A DNA stretch of 64,000 nt from an uncultured Dehalococcoidia bacterium (GTDB lineage: Bacteria > Chloroflexota > Dehalococcoidia > Lucifugimonadales > UBA1127), in assembly GCA_951812285.1 (NCBI GenBank), contig OX638292.1:1590551-1654550 (forward strand), written 5' to 3'. The notes under the pieces were generated by a model. That model did not search any database. It was not told the DNA's origin and saw only the letters and a list, made by a program, of their open reading frames with translations. Of this stretch, positions 22,387-40,200 are shown in pieces (the first letter of the stretch is position 1; each line of letters begins with the position of its first letter). The position numbers were made by a program, and so were the translations under genes.

Positions 22387-23133
22387 ATGGGAATTGGGGC
22401 ATTGCCTGCGGTTCTGTGGGCTGTGGGAGGGCTTCTGCTGCTTGCAGCGTGCGCCGGCCCATCGGCTGCGGCGCCTGCGAATCCCGGGCAGCAGACGTTG
22501 CCGGCGCCGGAATCCCCGTTCGACGCCAGGGACCTCCCCCCATCGTCGGCCGCGGTTGCGCCGGCTACGCAGCCGGCGCCGCAGGGACAGGCGCCCGCGC
22601 CCGTGCAGTCGAACGTGGCACCCCAGGGGCAGACAACGTCGAGCAATCAACAATCAGAAGTTCAGACCAAGGGAACAGGCGACAGCTCAAAGCAGACCGA
22701 ATACACGTGGCAGGACGGCGACCGCACAATGACCGTCATGCTCGAAACGGACCTGGCGGTTGGCGAGGAAGTCCCCGGCGCCAAGAGCGTGTATGGCGAT
22801 GCACCCGAAAGCGGCATCGTGCGGGCGGAGGACGTGCCCAGAGGGAGCAAGAGCGATCCCGTCTTCCGGTCGCAATCGGGCGCGCTCATGACCCTGCCCG
22901 GCGGAGTCCTGCTGGTCCTCGACCCGAAATGGAGCGCCAAAGAGATCACCGCCTTTTTCTCCACCAACAACATCAGTGGGGACCGCGTTGAGAAGCTGGG
23001 CTACATAGAGAACGGGTTCTTCGTTGAGACTGCGTCGGGCTTCCCGTCGCTGGACCTGGCCAACGCCCTCGCCACCCAGGACGGCGTCCTGATCTCGAGC
23101 CCCAACTGGTGGACGGAAGTCACCGTGAAATGA
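22387..23133 (+). CDS. Lipoprotein with subtilase propeptide-like C-terminal domain
   Basis: This is a 248-residue protein; ATG 22387 follows GGGAGAGGAGG. The signal ends in LLLLAACAG, a lipobox with Cys22. Residues 23-105 are a Pro/Ala/Gln-rich tether. The C-terminal part (about 165-248) reads LPGGVLLVLDPKWSAKEITA, then FFVETASGFPSLDLANALA and GVLISSPNWW. This resembles the inhibitor-like propeptide of fervidolysin-type and related subtilases (from memory). It has no protease domain of its own, but the next gene, 26 bp on, encodes a protein with two subtilase modules and no obvious propeptide. I infer that it folds or inhibits that protease in trans from the membrane surface. Confidence 0.65.
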   Translation: MGIGALPAVLWAVGGLLLLAACAGPSAAAPANPGQQTLPAPESPFDARDLPPSSAAVAPATQPAPQGQAPAPVQSNVAPQGQTTSSNQQSEVQTKGTGDSSKQTEYTWQDGDRTMTVMLETDLAVGEEVPGAKSVYGDAPESGIVRAEDVPRGSKSDPVFRSQSGALMTLPGGVLLVLDPKWSAKEITAFFSTNNISGDRVEKLGYIENGFFVETASGFPSLDLANALATQDGVLISSPNWWTEVTVK

Positions 23134-23159: not shown

Positions 23160-26100
23160 GTGACTGTTCCGATGTGCGAACTTCAGCTGCCGTTCAGGCT
23201 GTTGTCGATTGGAGGAGCATGCCTGTTCCTCCTGTCGGTTGGACTTGGGAGCGTGTCGGCGCAGAGCGGCACTCCCGGCGCGCCGGTCCTCGACAGCGTC
23301 AGCGCGGGCGACCGGGCGCTGCACGCCGCGTGGAGCGAACCGTCGGACACGGGATCATCCACGATAGCCACCTTCGACCTGCGCTACATCCTCACCACCG
23401 GGGACGAGACGGACGACGCCAACTGGACGGAGGTGGAGGGCGTTTGGCCGGGGGCCGGGGAGCTGGCGCACGCCGTCATCGACCTGAGCAACGGCGATCA
23501 GTACGACGTACAGGTGCGCGCCGTCAACTCGCGCGGCGACGGCGCCTGGTCTGCGACGGTCACGGGCACGCCCGCCGACCACGGGGGCAACCGGTCGTCA
23601 GCAACGGCCTTCACGTTGCAGTCGCCCATGCTGGGCTACATAGCGTCGAGCAGCGACGACGACTACTTCGCATTCACGCTGGACGACGACACCGGGATCT
23701 TCATCTTCACGACCAGCTACATCTCCGGGTTTCTTGCCACCACCGGCGACCTGCGGAACAGCAGCGGCACCGTCATCCGGCCGGATGAGGCAACTCCCGA
23801 CTTCCGGGAGCACGGCGACCAACTGCTCATCTGGGACAGCCTGGCGGCGGGCACCTACTACGTGCGCGTGGAGGCCCCCGAGGCCGGGTACTACACGCTG
23901 CACGCGCAACCCGTACCCGACAGCGCCAGCACGGGCGACGCCATCGGCATGAACCTCGGCGGGCGCGCCAATGGCATCCTGGAGCCCGGTTCCGGGGACG
24001 AGGACTACTTCAGCTTCGTGCTCTCGTCGGCCACCGACGTCATGGTCTGGCTGCCGCGCGCCGGCAACGGGCTCGATCCGCTGGGCACGCTGCTGGACGC
24101 GGAGGGTGCGGAGGTGGCCGGGCACGATGACAGCTTCATCGACGGCGACAGGGGCAGGCACTTCATCATCAGAGAGGAACTCGACGCCGGAGTCTACTTC
24201 CTGAAGGTGAGCGGCGCGCCATCAACGACCTTTGACGTTTGCAAGGGTTACAGACCGGTGGACATCAGACAGCGCTGGGAGAACTGTTACGATACGGAGG
24301 AGAAACCCGCCGCAACGGATTCGGGCCCGTACACCGTCGTCGTGGAGGCCGTGCCGCCGCGGAGCAGCTCACTGTCGTCGTCGGCTGCGCTGCACCTGGG
24401 CGATGGCCAACTGGCCGGCGGGCGGATCGACACCAGGGGTGATTCCGACTATTTCAGCATTACGGTCGACCAACCCACTCATGTGAAAGTTGACGTGGTT
24501 AGTGCAGAAGTAGAGACGGAGATGAGATTCTACGGCACTGACGGCGCCATAGCGCAACGATTCGCGGTGGACACCGACTATCTCCCGGGCGCATTCAAGT
24601 ACAGGCTCCATGCGACGCTGGAGGCCGGCACGAGCCATGTCAAAGTTGCCGCCGAAACCAGGGACATAACCGGGCCGTTCGCCATTCGGGCGACAGTGGA
24701 CAGGGAGTACGCGGACTTCCTCTCCACCTGCACCGGTCTCGCCACTTCGTACTCGGACCCGCTATACGGCTGCCAGTGGAATATGAACAACACCGGCCAG
24801 GATACCGGCCAAGGGGCGGGGACCCCTGGCGAGGACATCAACGTCGAGGAGGTGTGGGACGGCGGCAACCTTGGCGAGGGAATCAACATCGCCATCGTCG
24901 ACGACAGCCTTCACTTCGAGCATGAAGACTTGCGTGACAACGTCAACACCGACAAGAACATAAACTTCACCCAGTATGGAAACATCGCTGAGCGTCACTT
25001 CTACCATGGCACCTCCATGGCGGGGATCATAGCCGCTCGAGACAACGCATTCGGCATGCGGGGCGTGGCTCCCAGAGCAACCATCTACGGCTACAACTTC
25101 CTCCGCAATTCTACATTCGAAAACATGTCCCGCTCCATGCGGGGACACATGAACACTACCAGCGTTTCCAACAACAGCTGGGGGTTCAAGCCCGGGCCAG
25201 GACTGAATCGTCCCCCCCGGATTTGGGAGGTAGCGATTCAGACTGGAGTTAATAGGGGACTTAGGGGAAGGGGAGTCTCCTATGTCTTCTCCGCGGGAAA
25301 CGGCGCGCTGAAGGGGGGCTATTCCAACCTCAGCGGTCTAACAAATCACTACGCGGTCATGGCAGCGTGCTCCGTCAACGACCAGGGAGAATGGCCCGAC
25401 TATTCGGAGCAAGGCCCAAACTTGTGGATCTGCGCTCCCGCCGGCGATGCGTCGGCTGGCCGGCAGGGCGTGGTGTCGACCGACACGTATAACCGCTATA
25501 CCCAAGGCTCCGCGGGAAGCGCAGCCGCCACAGCCACGGTAACTGGGGTAACGGCTCTGGTGCGGAAGGCGAATCCTGCACTGACGTGGCGGGACGTGAA
25601 GTTGGTGCTCGCCGGATCCGCGCGCAAGAATGCCGCCGGCGACTCCGGCTGGACTTCGGGTGCGTTGAAATACGGTTCCTCCACGGAGCGGTATAACTTC
25701 AACCACAAGTACGGCTTTGGCGTGGTCGACGCCAAGGCGGCGGTGGACCTGGCGGAATCGTGGACCAACCTGCCAAGAATGCGGGTCGCCATTGGCGGTT
25801 CAGTCACCGACCTCGACCTGACAATTCCCGACGGAGGCACGGTCAGCCACAATATCACCGTGGGGCCCGGCGTTGGCTTCATCGAGTTCGTAGAGGTCCA
25901 CATTGCTACCAGGCACCCATCCTTCCGGGACCTGAAGGTTGAACTCACGTCGCCTGACGGGTCCACGTCAGTGCTCAGTGTGTCCCATGACTCGGAATCC
26001 AAGTTCCCACTGAACGGCTCGTTTCGCTTCGGGTCGGCAGCCCACCTGGGGGAGGGCGCGGGAGGCCAGTGGACCTTGCGACTCGTCGACGAAGTCACGG

Positions 26101-29100
26101 GCAACTCCGGCTTGCTCAAATCGTGGCGCCTAACGGTGTATGGCCACGTCTCGGGCGATGAGGTGCCCATAGTTTCTTCAATCACTTCTAACAATGCCGA
26201 GCTTGTTGTCGGTTGGACGGCGGTTGGCGACCATTCCGTTACAGCGTACGACGTCAGGTACATCGACAGCGCCGCCACAGACAAGGCCGATGCCAACTGG
26301 ACGGTGGTTGACGATGCTGTGACGGCGGGCACCGGGACGTTGACGTACACAATCTCCGGGCTCACCAACGGCGCCCAGTATGACGTGCAGGTGCGCGCCG
26401 TTCGGGGCGCCACGGACGGGGCGTGGTCGGGGACCGCCGTAGGCACGCCGATGGCCGGGAGCGCCGCAGTGCCCGCCATCCAGGACATCCGCACGGAGGA
26501 CACTGCCCTCAACGTGACATGGAATGCGCCCTCAAGCCCACCAGCACTGACAACCGCGTACGACGTGCGCCATATCCGCAGCGACGCCAGCGACAAGGCC
26601 GACGCCAACTGGACCCTTATAGATGACGCGTGGACCGAGGGAGCCCTCTCCTACACCATCACCGGACTGGCAAACTACGCCGAGTACGACGTGCAGGTGC
26701 GGGCCGTGAGCGCAAACGGCGACGGCGCCTGGTCATCGACGGCTACCGGCCAACCCGCAGAATTCGGAGACTCGGTGGAGACTGCTGGGACGCTGTTGTT
26801 AAACAGCCTCGTGCGCGGCGTCATCAACGTTGTGGGCGACCTGGACGCCTTCAAGGTGGAATTGAGCACAGCAGGGCATTACTCGTTCTACACCACCGGA
26901 AGCACGAATACCATTGGCGTACTGTTGGACGACCAAAGGGAGGAAATAGACCAGAATGACAACGGATTGCTGTCCAGATTCGATACGAACTTCTACATTG
27001 CGGCGGCTCTGGATCCCGGCACCTACTATCTGTTGGTATCCGGATACGGCAACGAAACGGGCAAATATGCGCTGAGGGCGGAGGCTTCGCCAGACAGTTC
27101 GAGCAGGTCGGACGCGGTGCCACTTCCCATCGACGGCACGGCGGAGGAGACGTTTAGCGGCGAATCCGATGAAGACTTTTTCAAACTGCAGTTGACTCAG
27201 AGGACAGACGTGGCTTTGCGCTCAACCGGGAACAGGGACACCGTGGCGGTCCTGACCAACTCCTCTGGCACCGAAATAGCATCAAGCGACGAGGGTTACA
27301 TGGACCCAAGTTGGCACAACTTCCTGATCCTCAAAAGACTCTCCCCCGGTACGTACTATCTCCAGATTCATGAGCACGGCGGAAGAAGCGGACCCTACAG
27401 GGTCCACGCGTCGAGCATCACAGAGCCGGGAAACACCAGCACGGACGCGCAGGAAATCCGATTTGGCGAGCTGACCGGAGGCCGTATCAGTTCCGGGGGC
27501 GAAACGGAATTCTTCACCTTCACCCTGGAAGAGAGAAGAAGAGTAAGGCTTGCCGCAACTGGTCAGCCTTTTCAAGGGTCAAGCCTACAGGTCGTCGCGG
27601 AGCTTCTGGACGGCAACCTCAACTCATTGGAAAGGTTTTGGGCCCATGCGTACACAGGCCTACTCGAGGGGGAGCGAGTCCTCCCGGCTGGCGAATATTT
27701 CCTTAAGATCAGGGGGGCGACCTCAACGGAGAAAGGGGTCTACGTGCTTCGGGCCTACCGAACTGCGGTATCTGCGCGCGAGTCAAACCCCTGTTCCGGG
27801 GACCTCATCGGCCTTTCGGACACCTTTGCCGGCTGCCAGTGGCATCTGATCAACGTAGCCCAACTTGGAGGTCTCGGTGGGCCCGACCTGAACATTGAGA
27901 GTGTTTGGAGCACGTACGACGGGGAGGGCATCAACGTCGTGGTCGTGGACGACGGCCTCGAATTTGGGCATGAGGACCTGACCGCCAATGTTGACAGAGC
28001 CAAGAACCACTCATACGTCGAAGGCAAGTCTGTCTCGGACCTCAACCCGTGGCACGGAACGTCGGTCGCCGGCGTCATCGCCGCCGAGGCCAACGACATA
28101 GGCGTGCGCGGCGTTGCGCCGGGCGCCACCATCTACGGCCATAACCTGCTCCATAACGTCACCGACATGAACCTAGGCTACGCAATGTCCCACGACTTGG
28201 CCACAACCGCCATCAGCAACAATAGCTGGGGCACCCCAGATTTTGGTCTCCCAAGTCCCGCCAATCATTTCTGGAGGGCCGGCGTTGAGAGCGGCATCAC
28301 CAGCGGCTACGGCGGTAAGGGGGTGTTTTACGCCTGGGCCGCTGGCAACGGCGCCTACTACCGTGACTATTCCTCCCTGGACGAGCAAACCAACTTCTAC
28401 GGCGTGACCGCAGTTTGTGCGGTGAATTACAGGGGAAAGCGTTCCTCCTTTTCGGAACCGGGATCCAACCTCTGGGTCTGCGGTCTGTCCAATAACGGGG
28501 CTACATCCGGCTTGCCCGGCATCACCACCACAGCCGTCCGCAACGACTACACCAGCAGGTTTGGCGGGACAAGCTCCGCCACTCCCATGGTCGCCGGTGT
28601 TGCGGCGCTGATGCGGGAGGCCAACGACCAGCTGACGTGGCGCGACATCAAGCTGATCCTTGCGGCCACTGCCCGGAAGGTGGACCCGGACAATACGGGT
28701 TGGACGGAGGGCGCCCTCAAGTACGGTTCGATGTCGGAGCGCTACTCCTTCAACTACGAATATGGATTCGGGCTTGTTGACGCGCAGGCCGCCGTGGACA
28801 CGGCTCTAACCTGGACCAATGCGCCGGCGTTTCGAAAGATCAGTGTCTCTTCCGGCGGTCTGGACTTGCACATCGCCGACACCCAGGGCGGAGTCTATGC
28901 AACGACTGTAACCACGAGCCTCACCGTGGACCCCCACGTGAGCTTCATCGAGCATGTTCAGGTAGACGTCGACCTCCAGCACACCTCGTTCAGGGACCTG
29001 CACATCGAGGTGGAGTCCCCAAGCGGTGTGGTCTCCGTCCTGTCGCCAACCGCGCTAGACGCCATAGGTACTTCTCTTACTGCGCTAGGTGAAAGGTGGA

Positions 29101-32100
29101 ATGGGGAATTCAGTTTCGGTTCAGCCAAGCACCTTGGCGAGAACGGCGCCGGGGAGTGGACGCTGCGGATATCAGACCGCGTCAGAAATGACTCAGGCAC
29201 ACTCCGGTCATGGGGCATCACCCTCTACGGGCATGGGGAGGGGCCGGGCATTCCCGCGATCGATGCCGTGACGGCGGGCGCCCGGAGCGCGACCGTCGCG
29301 TGGTCGGCGCCGACCATCACCGGCAACGCCGCCATCACGTCCTACGACCTGCGCTACCGAAGGGAAGAGCCGGACGCCGAGTGGGTGGAACTCCTGACCA
29401 TCTGGTCATCGGGCACGCTGAGCTACACGCTCTCCGGCCTGGACGGGGAGGCCACGTACGACATTCAGGTACGCGCGAGGAGCGGCACGGTCGTGGGCCC
29501 GTGGTCGAAGGCTGAAGCCGCCGAACCGACGTTGGCGACGCCGACCGCGCCTTCCATCATTGCCGTCGATCCCGGGAACCGCACCCTTGGCGTCACCTGG
29601 ACGCCGCCTCCCGAGGCGGTAGGGGACGAGATCACCGCCTACGACCTGCGGTACATCCTCACCAGCGCCGACGAGTCGGTCGACGCCAACTGGACGGTGC
29701 GCTCCCGCGTGTGGACGTCGGGGCCGCTGCGCTATGCGCAGGGCAGCCTCACCAACGGGTCGGGCTATGACGTGCAGGTGCGGGCGGTCAACAGCGAAGG
29801 CGAGGGGGCGTGGTCCTCCTCCCTCCAGGGAACGCCGGCGGACCGGGTGAACCTCAGGCTGGGGTGGGCCAGTGCCGCCACCACGGTCGACGAGAACGCG
29901 GGGTCGGTCACGCTGCAGGCTGAGCTTGTCGTTGCCGAGTCGGGCATGGTGGAGAGCGGGCTATCCGTTGACGTCGCCGTGACCGCCGATGGCGCCGCGA
30001 ACGCACCATCGGACTATACCGTGCAGCCGACGGCGCTCACCTTCAGCGCGAGTGACTTCACGTCCGCGACGATTCAGGGACAGACCCGCTACATCGCGGT
30101 GAAGGACATCGTCCTGGCCCTGGTGGACGACTCGGTCAACGAAGGCGACGAGCAGGTCACCCTGACGTTGACCTACGATGAGCCGGCCCTGCCGCACCTG
30201 GTGGGCGACCGTGCCACCCTGGCGGTCACCATCCGTGACGACGACCGCGGCCCCATCGCACTATCGTGGGAGAACCCGTCGGTCACCGTCGATGAGGGCG
30301 CCGGGGTGGTGGCCCTGCGCGCGTTGGCCATCACCGGGCAGGACGTCGCGCCTGCCGCCGATTTCACGGTGCAGGCGTCGGTGGCTGCGGTTGAGGGAAC
30401 GGCGGAACGGAGCGTCGACTACTCGCCGCATTCCAGCACGATCGTCTTCAGCGGCAGCTCGTTCAGCCGTACGACGATCGACGGCCAGGGCCGCTATCGC
30501 GCCGCGTACGATGTCGTGATCCCTATCGCGGACGACCTGGACGATGAGCCGGATGAGCAGCTGACGGTGGTCATGGCCTTCGTCAACCCGACGCTGCCGC
30601 ACCTGCAGGGCTCGTCGGCGACGGCGACCGTCACCATCCGTGACAACGACTTCGTTCCCGTCACCATTGGCTGGGACCCGCCGGCGGCCAGCCTGGAAGA
30701 GCATGGGCCCACGGTGACCCTCGGGGCCACGGTCACCACCACCGTGGACAGGATGCCCGAGAGCGGGTTCTCCGTCCTCCTCTCGGCGACAACGGCCGAC
30801 GACACGGCGACCGCCGGGTCCGACTACCGATCGCTGACCCAGGACCTGAGCTTCCAGCAGAGCGACTTTACGCGCACCGACGTGGGCGGCCAGTTCCGCT
30901 TCCAGGCGACCAAGGACGTCACGGTCTCCATCATCGACGACACGGTGGACGAGGGGGACGAGGCCTTCACCGTGGACCTGGCGTACCGCGGGGTCATGCA
31001 CAACCACTACACGGGCGGGAGCGCCGAGGCGACCGTGACCATCGTCGACAACGAGTTGCCGGAGGTGACCCTGGGCTGGGAGGCTGCAACGCTCTCGGTG
31101 GACGAGCCGGCCACACCGGGGAGCACCGTGGCCGTGACGCTAACGGCCGTGGCCAGCACAGTGGAGAACATGCCGCCGGAGCCGGGCTTCACCCTCGACT
31201 ACAGCGTGACGACGGCGGACGGCACGGCGACGGCGACGGCGGACTACGAGGCGCTCCACGAGACCAAGTCCATTCCACGCAGCGACTTCACCGCCGAGAC
31301 GGTGGACGGGCAGACCCGGTACCGGACCACGCTTTCCTACACGGTCACCATCGCGGACGACACCGTGGACGAGGAGGACGAGACCTTCACGGTCCGGCTC
31401 GCCTTCGACGACCCCAACGCGCCGTACCTGATACCCGGGGACATGACGGCGACCATCACCATTGCGGACAACGACCACGTGGCGGTGAGGCTCGGCTGGG
31501 CGGAGACGCGGTTCACCGCGGAAGAGCCCACCACCGTGGGTGACACCACATCGTTGACCCTGACGGCCCGGGCGGTAACGACGAAGGACAAGCAGCCAGA
31601 GGCGGGCTTCGTCATGAACTTCAGCGTCAGCAGCGCCGACGGGACGGCGCAGGAACCCGCGGACTACACCGGGGTCTTCAGCGGGTCGGAGTCCTTTACG
31701 CCGAACGATTTCTCGCGGACCACCCTGAACGGACAGCGGGTGTTCGTGGCGGCAAGGGACTTCACCGTCACCATCGCCCACGACACCCGCGACGAGCCCA
31801 ACGAGACCTTCACCGTCGATCTCGACCTGACCAATGCCAGCCTGCCGCACCTCAGCGCGGGCGCCACCCGCGCCACGATCACCATCACCGACAACGACCA
31901 CGTGCCCGTGGCGCTGAGCTGGGCGCAATCGTCCTTCACGGAGAACGAGGACACCGCTGCCGTCACCCTGACGGCGGAGGTGACCACGACGGTCGACAAG
32001 ATGCCGGAGGCCGGGTTCGTGGCGGCCGTCGCGGTGGAGACGGTGGACGGCAGCGCCACGGCGGGGCCGGACTACGTCCGGCTGTCGACGGCGCACAGCT

Positions 32101-33893
32101 TCCCGCAGAGCGCCTTCAGCCGGGTCGACACGGGTGGGGGGCTGTACCGCTACCAGGCGACCCGCGCGTTCACGGTCAGCCTGCGGGAGGACAACGCCGA
32201 CGAGGAGACGGAGCAGTTTCAGGTCGTGCTGGCCTACAACAACCCCGCCCTGCCCCACCTGACGGGCGGCAGCGCCACCGCCACCATCGCCATCACCGAC
32301 AACGACCACGTGCCCGTGCGCCTCGGCTGGACCGAGACCCAGTTCACCGTGGAGGAGCCCACCACCGTCGGCGACACCACGCCGCTGACCCTGACGGCCC
32401 AGGCGGTGACGACCAAGGACAAGCGGCCCGAGAGCGGGTTCACCTTCGACATCGCCGTGAGCACCGCCGACGGCACCGCCCGGGAGCCGGGCGACTACGA
32501 GAAGCTCACGGAGACGGAGACCATTGACCGCTTCGACTTCTCCCGGCAGTCGGTGGGCGGCCAGTTCCGGTGGGTGGCCGAGGCGAGCTTCACCGTCAAC
32601 GTCAACCACGACACCATCACGCAGGAAACCGAGACCTTCCAGGTGCACCTGGCCTACGCTGGTTCGAGCCAGCCCTACCAGCTGCGGGCGGACACCACGG
32701 CGACGGTCACCGTCACCGATGACGCCGCATCCCTCGCCGACCTGACCACCACCGTCACCGTCGACAGGGGCACGGCAACATTCGGCGATACGCTCACCTA
32801 CGAGTGGTCGGTGACCAACACCGATGCGGCGGACACCACCAACGTCCGCCTCAACGCGACGCTCGACCCGGGGGTGACCTTCACCTCCGCCGGCGTGGAC
32901 CCCCCGTCGACGGGCCAGTGCAGCCAGTCGGGCGGCACGGTGACCTGCACCCTCGGCACGCTGTCACAGTCCGACAGGGTGGACGGCGCCATCGTGGTGG
33001 AGGTTGCCGACAGCGCGTCGGCGGACATCGCGTTCAGGGCGCTGGCGAAGGGCGACCAGCTCGACCGGACGCCGGGCGACAACGACGACGCGGTGGCGAC
33101 GGAGCTCGTTGCGCCGCCGCGGGCGATCGCGGACCTGCGCGCCACCGGGGAGGGCGGCCACATCGACCTGGCGTGGAGCGCCCCGGTCGACAACGGCAGT
33201 CCCATCACCGCCTACACGCTGGAGCGCAAGGACGACGTGAACGACTTCGTGGCGCTGACGGCGCCGGACCCCAACGCCCGCTCCTACCGGGACGAGGGCG
33301 TGGTGAGAGGGACCGAATACACCTATCGCATTCGGGCCGCCAACGCCGACGGCACGGCTGCCTGGTCCAACGAGGCCACGGGGGAGACGCGGGTCATCCC
33401 GCTGCCCGTCTCCGGCGGAGGCGGCGGAGGCGGCGGCGGCGGCTTCGGGCCGGCGCCGAAGGCGCCCAAGTTCGCCGACGGGTTCCGCACCACGAGAACC
33501 TTGCCGGAGAACGCCCGGCCCGGCGCCGCGGTGGGCGCGCCGATACCGGCGTCCCACGTGGACGACCTGGCCATCACCTACGCTCTCAGCGGGGCCGACG
33601 CTGCCTCCTTCACCGTCGACGTGGGGACGGGGCAGATGCGGGTCAAGGAGGGGGTCGAGCTGGAGCTGGGGCGCACGTACACGGTGAACCTGACGGCGAC
33701 GGACGCCGCGGGGTTCGGCGCGGTCATCATCGTCGTCATCGAGGTGTCCGGGGCCGCCCACCACGCCTACGACCTCAACGCCAACGGCGTCATCGATCGC
33801 GTCGAGGTCATCGCCGCCGTCCGCGACTACTTCCAGGGGCTCATCGACAAGCGCGACGTCGTCGAGATCATCAAGCTCTACTTCGCCGGGTAG
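23160..33893 (+). CDS. Giant secreted double subtilase (FN3/PPC/S8/P-domain duplication, Calx-beta, C-terminal tag)
   Basis: This protein has 3577 residues from GTG 23160 (ATG 23172 is possible) and a signal peptide ending near VSAQ. Order: FN3 (38-140), three PPC-like domains (141-515), S8 subtilase (517-865), P-domain (868-1000), two FN3, three PPC-like (1200-1535), second S8 (1541-1880), second P-domain (1884-2025), two FN3, seven Calx-beta repeats (about 2229-3190), DUF11-like (3192-3315), FN3, Gly-rich linker, cadherin-like domain and EF-hand tail (about 3420-3577). S8-2 has Asp1597, His1632 and Ser1805 (GGTSSATPMVAG). S8-1 keeps Asp581, His616 and SAGN, but the Ser position is Ala788 (AGSAAATATVTG). 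S8 plus P-domain is the kexin/proprotein-convertase arrangement. Probably a surface protease whose first module is a pseudo-enzyme. Confidence 0.88.
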   Translation: MTVPMCELQLPFRLLSIGGACLFLLSVGLGSVSAQSGTPGAPVLDSVSAGDRALHAAWSEPSDTGSSTIATFDLRYILTTGDETDDANWTEVEGVWPGAGELAHAVIDLSNGDQYDVQVRAVNSRGDGAWSATVTGTPADHGGNRSSATAFTLQSPMLGYIASSSDDDYFAFTLDDDTGIFIFTTSYISGFLATTGDLRNSSGTVIRPDEATPDFREHGDQLLIWDSLAAGTYYVRVEAPEAGYYTLHAQPVPDSASTGDAIGMNLGGRANGILEPGSGDEDYFSFVLSSATDVMVWLPRAGNGLDPLGTLLDAEGAEVAGHDDSFIDGDRGRHFIIREELDAGVYFLKVSGAPSTTFDVCKGYRPVDIRQRWENCYDTEEKPAATDSGPYTVVVEAVPPRSSSLSSSAALHLGDGQLAGGRIDTRGDSDYFSITVDQPTHVKVDVVSAEVETEMRFYGTDGAIAQRFAVDTDYLPGAFKYRLHATLEAGTSHVKVAAETRDITGPFAIRATVDREYADFLSTCTGLATSYSDPLYGCQWNMNNTGQDTGQGAGTPGEDINVEEVWDGGNLGEGINIAIVDDSLHFEHEDLRDNVNTDKNINFTQYGNIAERHFYHGTSMAGIIAARDNAFGMRGVAPRATIYGYNFLRNSTFENMSRSMRGHMNTTSVSNNSWGFKPGPGLNRPPRIWEVAIQTGVNRGLRGRGVSYVFSAGNGALKGGYSNLSGLTNHYAVMAACSVNDQGEWPDYSEQGPNLWICAPAGDASAGRQGVVSTDTYNRYTQGSAGSAAATATVTGVTALVRKANPALTWRDVKLVLAGSARKNAAGDSGWTSGALKYGSSTERYNFNHKYGFGVVDAKAAVDLAESWTNLPRMRVAIGGSVTDLDLTIPDGGTVSHNITVGPGVGFIEFVEVHIATRHPSFRDLKVELTSPDGSTSVLSVSHDSESKFPLNGSFRFGSAAHLGEGAGGQWTLRLVDEVTGNSGLLKSWRLTVYGHVSGDEVPIVSSITSNNAELVVGWTAVGDHSVTAYDVRYIDSAATDKADANWTVVDDAVTAGTGTLTYTISGLTNGAQYDVQVRAVRGATDGAWSGTAVGTPMAGSAAVPAIQDIRTEDTALNVTWNAPSSPPALTTAYDVRHIRSDASDKADANWTLIDDAWTEGALSYTITGLANYAEYDVQVRAVSANGDGAWSSTATGQPAEFGDSVETAGTLLLNSLVRGVINVVGDLDAFKVELSTAGHYSFYTTGSTNTIGVLLDDQREEIDQNDNGLLSRFDTNFYIAAALDPGTYYLLVSGYGNETGKYALRAEASPDSSSRSDAVPLPIDGTAEETFSGESDEDFFKLQLTQRTDVALRSTGNRDTVAVLTNSSGTEIASSDEGYMDPSWHNFLILKRLSPGTYYLQIHEHGGRSGPYRVHASSITEPGNTSTDAQEIRFGELTGGRISSGGETEFFTFTLEERRRVRLAATGQPFQGSSLQVVAELLDGNLNSLERFWAHAYTGLLEGERVLPAGEYFLKIRGATSTEKGVYVLRAYRTAVSARESNPCSGDLIGLSDTFAGCQWHLINVAQLGGLGGPDLNIESVWSTYDGEGINVVVVDDGLEFGHEDLTANVDRAKNHSYVEGKSVSDLNPWHGTSVAGVIAAEANDIGVRGVAPGATIYGHNLLHNVTDMNLGYAMSHDLATTAISNNSWGTPDFGLPSPANHFWRAGVESGITSGYGGKGVFYAWAAGNGAYYRDYSSLDEQTNFYGVTAVCAVNYRGKRSSFSEPGSNLWVCGLSNNGATSGLPGITTTAVRNDYTSRFGGTSSATPMVAGVAALMREANDQLTWRDIKLILAATARKVDPDNTGWTEGALKYGSMSERYSFNYEYGFGLVDAQAAVDTALTWTNAPAFRKISVSSGGLDLHIADTQGGVYATTVTTSLTVDPHVSFIEHVQVDVDLQHTSFRDLHIEVESPSGVVSVLSPTALDAIGTSLTALGERWNGEFSFGSAKHLGENGAGEWTLRISDRVRNDSGTLRSWGITLYGHGEGPGIPAIDAVTAGARSATVAWSAPTITGNAAITSYDLRYRREEPDAEWVELLTIWSSGTLSYTLSGLDGEATYDIQVRARSGTVVGPWSKAEAAEPTLATPTAPSIIAVDPGNRTLGVTWTPPPEAVGDEITAYDLRYILTSADESVDANWTVRSRVWTSGPLRYAQGSLTNGSGYDVQVRAVNSEGEGAWSSSLQGTPADRVNLRLGWASAATTVDENAGSVTLQAELVVAESGMVESGLSVDVAVTADGAANAPSDYTVQPTALTFSASDFTSATIQGQTRYIAVKDIVLALVDDSVNEGDEQVTLTLTYDEPALPHLVGDRATLAVTIRDDDRGPIALSWENPSVTVDEGAGVVALRALAITGQDVAPAADFTVQASVAAVEGTAERSVDYSPHSSTIVFSGSSFSRTTIDGQGRYRAAYDVVIPIADDLDDEPDEQLTVVMAFVNPTLPHLQGSSATATVTIRDNDFVPVTIGWDPPAASLEEHGPTVTLGATVTTTVDRMPESGFSVLLSATTADDTATAGSDYRSLTQDLSFQQSDFTRTDVGGQFRFQATKDVTVSIIDDTVDEGDEAFTVDLAYRGVMHNHYTGGSAEATVTIVDNELPEVTLGWEAATLSVDEPATPGSTVAVTLTAVASTVENMPPEPGFTLDYSVTTADGTATATADYEALHETKSIPRSDFTAETVDGQTRYRTTLSYTVTIADDTVDEEDETFTVRLAFDDPNAPYLIPGDMTATITIADNDHVAVRLGWAETRFTAEEPTTVGDTTSLTLTARAVTTKDKQPEAGFVMNFSVSSADGTAQEPADYTGVFSGSESFTPNDFSRTTLNGQRVFVAARDFTVTIAHDTRDEPNETFTVDLDLTNASLPHLSAGATRATITITDNDHVPVALSWAQSSFTENEDTAAVTLTAEVTTTVDKMPEAGFVAAVAVETVDGSATAGPDYVRLSTAHSFPQSAFSRVDTGGGLYRYQATRAFTVSLREDNADEETEQFQVVLAYNNPALPHLTGGSATATIAITDNDHVPVRLGWTETQFTVEEPTTVGDTTPLTLTAQAVTTKDKRPESGFTFDIAVSTADGTAREPGDYEKLTETETIDRFDFSRQSVGGQFRWVAEASFTVNVNHDTITQETETFQVHLAYAGSSQPYQLRADTTATVTVTDDAASLADLTTTVTVDRGTATFGDTLTYEWSVTNTDAADTTNVRLNATLDPGVTFTSAGVDPPSTGQCSQSGGTVTCTLGTLSQSDRVDGAIVVEVADSASADIAFRALAKGDQLDRTPGDNDDAVATELVAPPRAIADLRATGEGGHIDLAWSAPVDNGSPITAYTLERKDDVNDFVALTAPDPNARSYRDEGVVRGTEYTYRIRAANADGTAAWSNEATGETRVIPLPVSGGGGGGGGGGFGPAPKAPKFADGFRTTRTLPENARPGAAVGAPIPASHVDDLAITYALSGADAASFTVDVGTGQMRVKEGVELELGRTYTVNLTATDAAGFGAVIIVVIEVSGAAHHAYDLNANGVIDRVEVIAAVRDYFQGLIDKRDVVEIIKLYFAG
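33411..33890 (+). other. C-terminal surface tag, copy 1
   Basis: Gly-rich linker, FGPAPKAPKFADGFRTTR, a cadherin-like domain with YALSGADAASFTVD, then AYDLNANGVIDRVEVI (a canonical EF-hand loop: D-x-N-x-N-G-x-I-x3-E) and DYFQGLIDKRDVVEIIKLYF. Near-identical in layout to the tails at 41978 and 45856. Confidence 0.85.
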
Positions 33894-34281: not shown

Positions 34282-37200
34282 ATGATGGAACTAAACGAGG
34301 GTTCCTGTAGCAGCCCGAATGCGCCTCGATTGCAGCCCAGGGGGGTGGTAAGCCCCGCTCGCGCCCACCCGCCGGGATTTCTCCGTGTTCTCCTCTCATT
34401 GGCAGCCGTCGTGGTGGCGGCGGGGCTGCTGCTTGTGCCCGGGGAGGCGCGCGCACAGACGAATCCTGCTGCCCCCGGAATTGACAATGCGACCGTGGAC
34501 GGAACGTCCCTGATCATTTTCTATAGTGATCTCCTGGACCCCAACTCCACTCCCGCAACGTCCCAATACACTGTGACCGTGGGCGGCACCACCGAGCAAA
34601 CTCCCTCGAGCGTCGTGGTTCGGGCCGCTGAGGTTGAACTGACGCTTGGGACGGCTGTCACCAGCGGCGAAGCAGTGACCGTGACCTACAGGGGGGGGAC
34701 GACCAACGTTCAGAGCCTGTCACACATGACACACGTAGGGGCGCTGACCAACCAGGAAGTGAAGAACTTCACCGACTCGACCAACCACTTGCCGACGTTC
34801 TCGAGCAATGCGGTCACACTCACGGTCGATGAGAACACAGCCACCGGGGGGAACGTCGGGAGCCCAGTCCCCGCAACGGACCCCGACTCGGGCGACACGC
34901 TGACCTACGAACTGCCCGGCCATATCACCTACTTCGACGTTACGGCCGCCACGGGTCAGATAACAGTAGATACGGCCACCCTGGACTTCGAGGGTGGTAC
35001 GACTTCTTACGAATTTGCGCTCTTCGTTCGCGATAGCGAGGGCCCCGATGGAGGGGGCGACAGCATACATGACGACAGCATCAAGGTGACGGTCAACGTC
35101 AACGACGTCAATGAGCCGCCGGCATTTGTGGATGGCCTTACCGCCCCGACGTGGATGGAGGGCACGTCGACCGGTCAACTCCTTGCCGATTATGAGGTGA
35201 CGGACCCTGAGGATGACTCGCTGACATGGACGCTGACCGGCGCCGACGCGTCTCACTTCACCATCAACGCGTCGACAGGCGCTCTCATGTTTCAGGACGA
35301 GCCCGACTTCGAGGACCCCTTGGACGACGGCATGGATAACGTCTACAACATGACCGTTAACGTCCGCGACAGCAAGATCAACACCGCCACAAACAACGGC
35401 AACTCCGACTCCGCGGTAGACTTAAGCTTCGATTTCACAGTCACCGTCACCAACGTCAATGAGGACCCGGACATTACGAGCACTGGGGCCGGTTTCGCAA
35501 CAATCAGCGTCCCGGAGAACACGTCGGACAGCACCGTACTCGCCACCTACACCGCGAGCGACCCCGACGCTGATGACACAGCAGACACGCTTGTCTGGAC
35601 GCTGTCCGGCCCCGATGCCGACCAGCTTGAAATGTTTGGTTCCACCCTGTATTTCAGGGATCCACCCAACTTCGAGGTTCCTACTGACAACGGCGGAAAC
35701 AACGTCTACAACGTGATAGTCAATGTTCGGGATGATGCTGATGCCAATGTCGATGACACATTGAACGTCGCAGTCACCGTGACCAACGTCGACGAGCCTG
35801 GCATGGTGACGCTGCCCGGCACTATCACAGCCGGGATGGCGGCAACTGCGATGTTGAGCGACATAGACGGGGCTGTCAGCAACGTGGCGTGGCAGTGGTC
35901 GCGGTCACCAGCTCCAAGCGGCGCGTTCAACAACATTAGTGGAGCGACCTCAGCCTCCTACACGCCCGTGGCCGCGGACGTGGGCATGCATCTGAAGGTC
36001 ACGGCGATGTACATGGACCCGCAGGGTTCGGGAAAGAGTGCAATCAGCCCAGCGTCGAGTGCGGTGTTGAGGGGGAACCAGGACCCGTCGTTCAGCAACA
36101 TGTCGGCCATGCGGAGCGTGGATGAGAACAGCGCGTCGGGGGTGAACGTTGGGGCTGCAGTGTCGACCACGGATAGCGACGGCGACGCGCTGCAGTACAC
36201 GTTGACCGGCACGGACGCGTCGTCCTTCACCATCGATTCGAACGGCCAGATAAAGACCACGGGGGTCACCTACAACTACGAGTCCAAGAGCAGCTACAGC
36301 GTGACCGTGAACGTGCGCGACAATAAGGACGATGCCGGCAACACCAACTCCATGATAGATGACACCATCGCGGTGACCATCAACATCAACAACGTGGACG
36401 AGCCGGGGACGGTGACCATCTCGGGCTTGGAGGTGGGCGGCGAGACGCTGACGGCGTCGGTGACCGACATCGACGGGACGATCACCGGCCTGTCGTGGCG
36501 GTGGCAACGGCAGGGGAGCGGCAGCAATTTCAACAATATCAGCGGGGCTACCTCCAACACGTATGCGCCCGTGGCTGCGGACGTGGGCAAGAGGCTGAAG
36601 GTTAAGGCGATGTACACGGACCCGCAAGGGTCGGGCAAGAGCGCGGAGGCCGAGACGGGGGCGATCGGCTCAAGCAACTCCGACCCGGCGTTCCCTTCGA
36701 GTGAGACCGGCGCCCGCAGTGTGGCGGAGAACACGGGCGCAAACATGAACATCGGCACGCCGGTGGCGGCCACTGACTCGGACATGGACACGTTGCACTA
36801 CACGCTGGGGGGCACGGATGCGTCGGACTTTGACATCGATGCATCGACAGGCCGGTTGAAGACCAAGTCCGCGCTGGACCATGAGGCCGACGCGAGCTAC
36901 ACGGTGACAGTGAGCGTCAGCGACAACAAGGACGCCGCCGGCGACGCCAACAGCAACGCGGTGGATGACACCGTCACGGTGACCATCACGGTGACGGACG
37001 TCAATGAGGCGCCGGTGATATCGTCGCCTCCGGCGACCAGGAGCATCCCTGAGAACAGCACGGCCGTTTACACGTTTGCGTCGACGGACGTGGACGCTTC
37101 CGACACGCGGTCGTGGTCGGTGGAGAACGCGGACGACGGGGGCCTGTTCACGATCAGCGGGTCGACCGGAGCGCTCTCGTTCACGAGTGCGCCGGACTTC

Positions 37201-40200
37201 GAGACGCCAAGCCAGTCCGGAAGCACCGACAACCGGTACGTGGTGACGGTGAAGATCACCGACGCCGGTGGTTTGAGCGACACGCACGAACTCACTGTCA
37301 CCGTTACGAACATCAACGAGGCGCCCGACATCACGACCGATTCAGGGACATACTTAGCCTTTAACGTCGACGAAAATACGACAACTGACACGGTCATCAA
37401 GACCTACATGGCAACTGACGTGGACGCCGGAAGCGTATTGACGTGGTTGCTGGAAGGCAATGACGCAGGCGACTTCAATATCACGAAGAACGCACAAGGG
37501 CACGGGGATCTGACCTTTGCTAACGTGCCCAACTACGAGATGCCGGCCGACGCCGACACGTTGAATGACTACGACTTAACTGTAAAGGTCCGCGACAATC
37601 ACAGCGGCAATCTCACAGACACGGTGAGTGTCGCAGTCACCGTCGAGGACGTGAACGAGACGCCGGTGGTCAGCGGGACTGCGGAGCCGAGCTTCATGGA
37701 GATCGAGTACGACGCTACCTTACCGGTCCTCACCATCGGCACGTATACGGCCACCGACGATGAAGGGGACACGATGTCGTGGGCCGTGACCGGCACGGAC
37801 GCGGCGCACTTCTCGATCACGTCGACGGGCGTGCTGTCGTTCAGCATCAGACCGGACTTCGAGAACCCGGCTGACCTGGACGACTCCAACATGATGGGCG
37901 CCTCCAACAACGCGTACGATATCGTCGTGGAGGCCACGGACGACAATGCGCAGGGGGGCAAGGGGGGGACGCAAACGGGGACGTACGCCGTCACGGTGAC
38001 GGTGACCAACGTCGACGAGACGCCGGAGATTCCGGCGGGGGTTGATAACGAAAGCTTCGAGGAGATTCAGTTCGACGCTGTTTCCGCAGACCTGGACCTG
38101 ATGACCTACACACCTCGGGACGAGGAGACCTCCGATCTCACCAACCTGTCGTGGTCCCTTGGCGGCACAGACGCTGCCGACTTCGAGATCACGGAGGATT
38201 CCACAAACGGACACGGTACGCTCAGCTTCCGAGAGCGGCCCAACTACGAGGAGCCGACCGACCGCGTGAACACCACAGACGGCCATGTAGCCGGTGACCG
38301 AATGTACGAGGTCATCGTGATGATCAGCGACGGACCGAACACGCGAAAATACCCGCTGACGGTGACGGTCACCAACGTCAACGAGACGCCGATATTCACG
38401 GTAGAAAGCACCGCTTTTCACAGAGACGAGATCGAGTACGACTCGGGGATTACGGCGCAATATCTCTCCACCATCCCGGCCACAGATGAAAACCAGTTCT
38501 TATGGTACGAGTTTGACGTGCGGGACGAGGAGGGGGATGACATCATTTTCACCCTCACCGGGGCCGACGCGGAGGACTTCGTCCTCACAGAGGACACGGC
38601 TTTTATGCCGACGGCAGACGCCGACGAGAGGGCCATCGCCCGCTGGGCTATCGTGCCGAACTATGAGGTGCCGCTGGGTTCTTCAAGTGAGGGGCCGAAT
38701 GCATACGTGTTCACAGTGAATGCATCCGACGGCTTCACCACGCGGGAGCACTCCTTCTTTATCCAGATTATCAACGTCAACGAGCAGCCGTCGTTCACGG
38801 GGACTCCGGAAACGGCGATAACGCTCGACGAGCACGACGCAACCCTCGATGCGAACTTCCAGGAGCCGCCCTACATCTTCCCGACTATCGCGTCATACAC
38901 CGCGCACGATGAGGAGGGCGGGGTCACGTGGTCGCTGACGGGCACGGACGCGGGGGACTTCGAGATCGACAGCGTCGGCGCTGTGACTTTCAAGGAGACG
39001 CCCAGCTTCGAGGACCCCAGGGACTCCGGCGGGAACAACGTGTACGAGTTCAACGTCGTCGTCACCGACGTCAAGAGCGGCTCGACAATGCGCTCGGCCA
39101 TGGAGGCCGTCACCGTGACGGTGCAGGACATCGAGGAGACGGGCGTCATCCAGGTGGACAACGTGACCCCTGCCGTGGGGGAGATGATCACCTTCGCGCT
39201 GACGGACCCGGACGGCGATATCGACACGGACCAACAAGACATCAGCTGGACCCTGAGGGCACAGGAGTCGGGGGTGTGGCAACCCATCACCCTCGGTCCC
39301 TCCGCCTCGACCATGCTGGTGTACACCGTGGATGAGGACGATGCCGGGAAGCCGCTGCGGGCCGAGGTGACATACTACGACCGCCGAAACGCTGACCGCA
39401 ATTTCGTCAACCGGAAATCACTGACGAGCGCTGAGACCCAGGAGGTCCTGGAGGACCCAGCGCCCAACGTGGACCCGCGATTCCGCGAGGGGTCGAGCCA
39501 GTCCATCGAGGAAGGCCCGGCCGGCAGATTCCTGCCGGACCGCATCACCGCCACGGACCGCGACGGCGACTCCCTGACGTACGCCATCGAGCCGTCGCCG
39601 GCTTCCGCGTTCTTCGAAATCAACCCGTCCACCGGGCAGATCGAGATAGTGGAGCCGCTGGACTTCGAAACAGCGGGGCCTGGTGGCATCCTGGTCTTCA
39701 CGGTCACTGTGCACGACGGCAAGGGCTTGGACTCGAACGACATGGTCATCCCCGACACGTCCGTCGACGCGACGACGTCCGCCTCCGTTGTGGTCATCGA
39801 CGTGGAGGAGGAGGGAGTCGTCACGTTCTCGCACCAGGAGCCGGAGGCGGGGACGCAGGTGACGGCGACACTGACGGACGGGGACGGCGGCGTCACCGGC
39901 CAGATGTGGGAGTGGTGGCGGTCGGCGAACGGGTCCGACTGGAGCCCCATCCCCAACACGAACAGCAGCACCTACACGCCCACAGTGGCCGATGAGGACT
40001 TCTACCTGCAGGCCAGGGTCACGTACACGGACAGTCGTGGCCCCGGCAAGCCCGCGGAGGGGATCACGGGCCCGGTGCCGAGCGAGAACCGGCGGCCGCT
40101 GTTCCCGTCGACGGAGGACGGGCGGCGGACAATCGATGAGAACTCGCGCTCGGGGGCGAACATCGGCGCGCCGGTGGCGGCGGAGGACCCGGAGCGGGAC

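Follow-up and report, generated by a model that had tools for sequence, protein, structure and literature searches.

A degenerate first module beside an intact kexin-type protease in a secreted protein of an uncultured Dehalococcoidia bacterium, and its probable retention in a non-catalytic role

Introduction

The window analysed here, 64,000 nucleotides of DNA from an uncultured Dehalococcoidia bacterium, encodes a large secreted protein with two subtilase (S8) modules in tandem, the first of which has alanine where the catalytic serine is expected. This raises the question of what the first module now is, how it came to stand beside an intact one and what it might be kept for. An earlier note, made from the sequence, had read the pair as a pseudo-protease followed by a working protease, and had suggested that the former might bind either the substrate or a lipoprotein propeptide.

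Fusion of a protease with a pseudoprotease is already known in the S8 family. As the available text of PMC6636752 describes it, CspBA of C. difficile consists of the protease CspB fused to the pseudoprotease CspA, while CspC is a separate pseudoprotease; in both CspA and CspC two catalytic residues are changed, and the pseudo-domains keep function. The protein in the window resembles CspBA, so far as that text portrays it, in carrying an active and a degenerate S8 domain in one chain. It differs in that the order is reversed, with the pseudo unit first, and in being of kexin type with P domains, a large adhesin-like tail and a propeptide in trans that bears a readable mark of specificity. Phylum and setting also differ, kexin-type loss of the first module occurring in two phyla, and we do not claim membership of the Csp group for this protein. 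Among the matches listed by our literature search on tandem or kexin-type pseudoproteases, Csp was the only bacterial S8 pseudoprotease, which is no proof of absence.

Results

Architecture of the locus

The large protein matches PF00082 and PF01483 twice each in Pfam, together with fn3, PPC, Calx-beta, DUF11 and cadherin-like domains; a signal peptide and a C-terminal EF-hand/dockerin-like tail were recognised by eye. An S8 fold followed by a P domain, the arrangement of furin and Kex2 (which we take to be MEROPS S8B), is present by Pfam and by the match of module 1 to furin. The principal features are as follows.

23160..33893, + strand: secreted multi-domain protein of 3577 aa (ORF call, Pfam)
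24675..25769, + strand: S8 domain of module 1, pseudo-protease (alignment; predicted with very high confidence, furin Z 51.5)
25782..26147, + strand: P domain of module 1 (Pfam; approximate limits from model strands)
27738..28823, + strand: S8 domain of module 2, intact, with Asp/Asp in S1 (alignment)
28572..28574, + strand: Ser1805, nucleophile of module 2 (motif)
28947..29225, + strand: P domain of module 2 (Pfam, residues 1930-2022)
22387..23133, + strand: upstream lipoprotein of 248 aa with an LLAAC lipobox, external propeptide-like chaperone (relatives beside proteases, cis fusion in L086, C-terminus compared with S1)

Two other features of the window were recorded. A neighbouring protein of 2723 aa (34282-42453) has ten cadherin matches and other Ig-like repeats in Pfam, and is possibly part of the same surface set as the 3577-aa protein. 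The pattern YDxNxNxxIDRxEVIxAVxDYF...IKLYFA, dockerin/EF-hand-like by eye, is common to 33768-33893 and the end of the open reading frame at 43374-46325, and this shared C-terminal tail of two large proteins is perhaps a sorting or anchoring signal.

Active sites of the two modules

The residues on which the reading of module 1 depends are these.

24900..24902, + strand: Asp581, triad Asp, retained (module alignment)
25005..25007, + strand: His616, triad His, retained (module alignment)
25191..25193, + strand: Pro678, S1 position, acid lost (alignment to Kex2/furin)
25299..25301, + strand: Asn714 of SAGN, oxyanion Asn, retained (module alignment)
25332..25334, + strand: Ser725, second S1 position, acid lost (alignment to Kex2/furin)
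25521..25523, + strand: Ala788 (codon GCA) replacing the nucleophile Ser (Kex2 and module alignments, codon)
25533..25535, + strand: Ala792 replacing the conserved Pro after the nucleophile (module alignment)

Asp581, His616, Asn714 and the serine block all stand where the earlier note had placed them. The block, GSAGSAAATATVTG, reads G-S-A-A-A-T-A, and a phmmer alignment to yeast Kex2 (E 1e-39) pairs Ala788 with the Ser of GGTSAAAP and Ala792 with the conserved Pro; alignment of the family's own modules puts the nucleophile in the same column. With two other dead modules, the first module of the nearest relative (G008, below) and one fragment set aside beforehand, position 787 is Thr and position 788 Ser in 53/53 other modules, and position 792 is Pro in 52/53. 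The assignment of the nucleophile position to Ala788 is thus borne out by both alignments, and the objection that the note had itself anticipated, that Ser787 might be the nucleophile, fails because Ser787 occupies the conserved Thr column.

Not remarked upon in the earlier note is the loss of both acidic residues of the S1 pocket, which are replaced by Pro678 and Ser725, positions that we take to be those of furin Asp258 and Asp306 and to be acidic in the S1 pockets of Kex2 and furin. The pair reads Pro/Ser in module 1 of the window, Gly/Ser in that of a paralogue in the same genome and Ala/Asn in that of G008, against Asp/Asp, Asp/Glu and Asp/Asp in the respective second modules. The S1 acids are missing from several live single modules too, so a module cannot be called dead on that ground alone. 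Module 2, as had been claimed, is intact: it has the Asp/His/Asn/Ser set (D1597, H1632, N1730, S1805) together with acidic S1 residues, and is like furin and Kex2 in fold, P domain, catalytic residues and S1 acids. Module 1 departs from furin and Kex2 in lacking both the nucleophile and the S1 acids, and the whole protein in its tandem modules and trans propeptide. Judged by these residues, module 1 is a non-peptidase homologue. Substrate binding by it, one half of the earlier proposal, is possible, and at such a putative site a preference for basic P1 would no longer be expected.

The codon at the nucleophile position is GCA (Ala) in module 1 of the window and GGC (Gly) in that of the paralogue; Ser is encoded by TCA in module 1 of G008 and by AGC in module 2 of the window. 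These codons fit either one loss in the common ancestor of window and paralogue or two separate losses. Only one genome assembly holds this locus, which could raise the suspicion that Ala788 is a sequencing or assembly error. We give that explanation negligible weight and reject it, since the frame is open and carries Thr787Ser, Ser788Ala and Pro792Ala along with the two S1 substitutions, and since some of the same drift is also seen in the paralogue and G008.

Relatives and the pattern of catalytic loss

The source genome (one contig, 2.86 Mb) contains five such modules in three genes, encoding the 3577-aa double protein, a 3202-aa double (the paralogue) and an 1843-aa single-module protein. 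Module 1 of the paralogue has undergone His to Arg, Asn to Ser and Ser to Gly changes, and its module 2 is intact. The nearest relative of module 1 is found in G008, a double protein from another family of the order (identical with sequence L027; record OX638353.1, uncultured Dehalococcoidia bacterium), whose first module keeps D/H/N/S and has the same Pro-to-Ala change as the window. The earlier note had named orthologues with an intact serine as evidence against its reading, and that evidence exists in part, in that module 1 of G008 retains the serine. Since module 1 of G008 keeps all four catalytic residues, death of the first module is not fixed in the clade.

The sets of genomes searched, which overlap, came from the order (250 genomes, 11 matching), the class (393, 11), the phylum (400, 8), one other order (38, 4) and an Acidimicrobiia order (138, 6), with two later sets (72, 8 and 148, 2); one scan of genome contigs gave 34 loci. 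Four congeners and one further genome of the same family had no match, and extending the sampling to the order of G944 and the class of G946 brought neither additional multi-module proteins nor additional losses. In a plasmid collection 5/72,556 records matched, all under 33% identity, and these were left aside. Removal of identical copies and of matches under 270/362 columns left a non-redundant set of 65 modules, window module 1 included, all with E at most 1e-30.

D/H/N/S is kept in 62 of these 65 modules, and the three with catalytic loss are all first in multi-module proteins: those of the window, the paralogue and the Acidimicrobiia protein L044/G942. The last is a triple-module protein in an open frame of 7664 aa, with His to Asp and Ser to Lys in module 1 and no catalytic loss in modules 2 and 3. 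Of the five multi-module proteins encountered, three have a dead first module, the first modules of G008 and G978 being intact (the modules of G978 lie on two contigs and were taken as one gene). The comparison of 3/5 dead first modules with 0/53, counted before the final set of 65 was complete, gives a Fisher p of 0.0003, on rows that are not independent, as the modules of window and paralogue are sisters.

The Pro-to-Ala change after the nucleophile is common to all three first modules of the window, paralogue and G008. Combined with the serine of G008 it resembles P225A of engineered peptide ligases, which would suggest that module 1 retains some other chemistry or an altered form of catalysis. 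The available text of PMC7921005 offers a precedent, in that P225A makes room at the nucleophile and forms part of subtiligase, which also has a Ser-to-Cys change. We consider this reading very improbable, as module 1 of neither window nor paralogue has Ser or Cys at 788, and as a single module (L040) has Ser with Pro-to-Ala, so that the pair is not special to tandems.

Three further loci were noted. The single module of L040/L100 (Thermoanaerobaculia) has full catalytic residues together with the Pro-to-Ala change. At L117 (G974 C47) two adjoining separate genes (frames of 1728 and 1713 aa) carry one intact module each, with no propeptide match within 16 kb. The single-module gene L010 (G047) has frame changes before and after the S8 domain, which are probably assembly errors or frameshifts.

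Origin of the modules

The first modules of the window, paralogue and G008 group together (bootstrap/SH-aLRT 100/97), and the single-module L029 adjoins this clade without firm support (92/70). Among second modules, that of the window is sister to that of the paralogue (100/99). The Acidimicrobiia modules form a clade of their own (100/100), and the loss in their first module is therefore independent.

Two simpler histories were rejected. Simple tandem duplication within the lineage, which would unite seven modules (those of the three doubles and the genome's own single) in one clade, gave p-AU 0.0036 for a group named post hoc, and a separate duplication pairing modules 1 and 2 of the window gave p-AU 6e-8. 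Rejection of the single clade implies that both module types diverged before the genes took their present form, whether through fusion or through an old duplication.

Constraint and predicted fold of module 1

A redundant module might persist simply as an inert, decaying spacer, its frame maintained solely for the sake of module 2, which a stop would eliminate. The state of the first modules lends this some colour: that of the paralogue has lost three of its four catalytic residues, S1 acids and Pro have gone as well, and G008 may be seen as a half-way state. The rates say otherwise. Branch lengths are 0.46 and 0.49 for modules 1 and 2 of the window and 0.47 and 0.45 for those of the paralogue, and neither these nor codon models revealed any rate elevation in the dead modules, which evolve like the active module 2. 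Conservation in at least 90% of the 53 other modules marks out 58 columns; window module 1 agrees with them at 50 and departs at eight, among which are 787, 788 and 792.

Neutral drift of an in-frame module would bring omega near 1. In a purpose-written GY94 branch model over 352 codon columns, omega = 1 is rejected for module 1 of the window (2dlnL 36.1) and of the paralogue (39.5), with omega about 0.02, a value of which only the direction is safe because dS is saturated in this set at about 3 changes per codon; for the short stem branch N4 omega stopped at its bound of 7.39, so that no meaning can be read into it. The Acidimicrobiia modules are less diverged, and there the dead module 1 has an omega of 0.18 against a background of 0.20, and omega = 1 is again rejected (2dlnL 44). 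These branches may include time before the serine was lost, and part of the purifying selection may then predate the loss.

The predicted structure of module 1 with its P domain, modelled with 30 other sequences as input, has very high confidence both locally and overall. It matches furin 1p8j_B (Z 51.5, rmsd 1.9, 450 aligned) and Kex2 1ot5_A (Z 51.0, rmsd 2.0, 457 aligned), and to a lesser degree the Aeromonas protease ASP, 3wqb_A (Z 40.8, rmsd 2.0, 454 aligned). The conserved columns and the confident fold join the rates in weighing against an inert spacer, which we regard as unlikely. Because the dead modules do not evolve faster and neutrality is rejected by the codon models, the fold has probably been kept for a non-catalytic role. 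The central claim of the earlier note, a pseudo-protease ahead of an intact protease, is supported by sequence, relatives, paralogue and predicted fold alike, and its suggestion that cutting would fall to module 2 agrees with them.

The upstream lipoprotein and the S1 pocket

The lipoprotein at 22387-23133 ends in ...SSPNWWTEVTVK, its last residue being Lys. Relatives occur in 19 of the 34 loci of the contig scan, and no match was found in the available flank of L032, L033, L042, L045, L047, L048 and L051-L059. The gene lies upstream of the protease in the window and downstream in L046, L049 and L050. L086 (G319) shows the fused counterpart of this split arrangement: residues 322-411 of one ORF match the propeptide, in cis and directly ahead of an S8 match starting at 434. 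Because its relatives adjoin proteases and are fused to one in L086, the lipoprotein is best read as a separated propeptide.

The closest precedent is ASP of Aeromonas sobria, for which the available text of PMC5638518 describes a chaperone, ORF2, made from the adjacent gene, with its C-terminal Lys at the catalytic centre in the solved structure. The likeness, within what that text covers, extends to the S8 and P fold, the adjacent chaperone gene and the C-terminal Lys, which in the window fits the S1 pocket of module 2 as far as sequence can tell. The window differs in the upstream position of its chaperone gene, and the chaperones have no detectable sequence similarity at E 10. We know of no pseudo-module in ASP. 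The lipoprotein belongs to no Pfam or NCBIfam family, produced no sequence hit, with E allowed up to 10, against ORF2 or other chains of solved structure, and its model found nothing in Foldseek at E 0.001. Residues 1-145 of that model align with VIA, 3wqb_B (Z 5.9, rmsd 3.4, 91 aligned), and the model aligns with the PC1/3 prodomain 9fid_F (Z 6.2, rmsd 3.2, 72 aligned), both middling among other ferredoxin-like matches.

Across 23 single-module pairs, the lipoprotein ends in Lys or Arg in 18 of the 19 with an acidic S1b (the exception, L035, has Asp/Asp with a Glu end) and in Gln in all four with a non-acidic S1b (L029, L031, L037, L043). The count leaves out double and triple proteins, L086, and L060, L118, L122 and L123, in which module or S1 was unread. 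Fisher's test gives p 0.0006 for the 23 rows and 0.001 for 20 rows after three near-copies were dropped. Independent switches of S1b amount to two pairs on supported branches, the C-terminus having followed in one, and to four pairs on all branches, too few for significance in an independent-pairs sign test. Hence it is suggestive, and not proven by phylogeny, that throughout the family the last residue of the propeptide follows the acidity of S1, and a Lys/Arg or Gln end is a possible specificity code (22387-23133; L006, L007, L010, L027-L050, L121, L124). Such a code offers no account of the lipoproteins of the Acidimicrobiia multi-module systems L044/G942 and L119/G978, whose last residue is Glu. 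One of the S1 positions in module 3 of L044 is occupied by Lys.

For the doubles, the lipoprotein ends in Lys (window), Lys (paralogue) and Arg (G008), which fits the S1 pocket of module 2. Each of the three protease genes in the source genome has one such lipoprotein, and the genome contains no others; all three end in Lys, none in Gln. This bears on the other half of the earlier proposal, that module 1 may bind the lipoprotein propeptide, which can be extended to a permanent attachment tethering the protease to the membrane. Such a tether would gain from the adjoining genes and from a dead site unable to cleave it. The ends suit the second modules (DD, DE, DD) and not the first (PS, GS, AN), the four single modules with a non-acidic S1b pair with Gln, and the lipoprotein also accompanies single-module proteases, which have no pseudo-module. 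The evidence accordingly speaks against binding through the active site of module 1, a C-terminal Lys/Arg suiting the acidic S1 of module 2. Attachment elsewhere on module 1 may occur, and a permanent tether appears improbable.

Discussion

We think it probable that module 1 is a kexin/furin-type S8 and P unit that has lost hydrolysis and is kept folded as a non-catalytic part, and that module 2 is the working, Lys/Arg-specific protease with a propeptide supplied in trans. The lipoprotein would act as that propeptide, helping module 2 to fold and keeping it inactive, by inserting its C-terminal Lys into that module's S1 pocket, on the pattern of ORF2 and ASP; module 2 would then be the unit that cuts after Lys or Arg. 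The ancestors of module 1 may have been proteases whose S1 pocket was non-acidic and whose chaperone was of the Gln type. Sharing its gene with a Lys/Arg-type module in a genome that holds no chaperone of its own type, module 1 could have lost catalysis while its fold stayed useful. Most likely it would serve module 2 as a scaffold or bind a ligand, either a peptide or something at the surface, and the steady constraint upon it argues for a job.

A broader reading is more tentative, and we hold it at somewhat under an even chance: that in kexin-like proteases with a trans propeptide, catalysis is lost time and again from N-terminal modules that share a gene with a second module and lack a chaperone matching their specificity, and that such modules stay under purifying selection as non-cleaving, peptide-binding units, module 1 of the window being a Gln-lineage orphan joined to a Lys/Arg-type partner. 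The first modules that stand beside live second modules form a natural series, from live (G008) through dead (window) to more eroded (paralogue), through which the use of retaining a pseudo-protease can be tested. The correspondence between the end of the propeptide and the S1 pocket is a possible predictor both of the module that a separate propeptide serves and of the residue at which that module cleaves.
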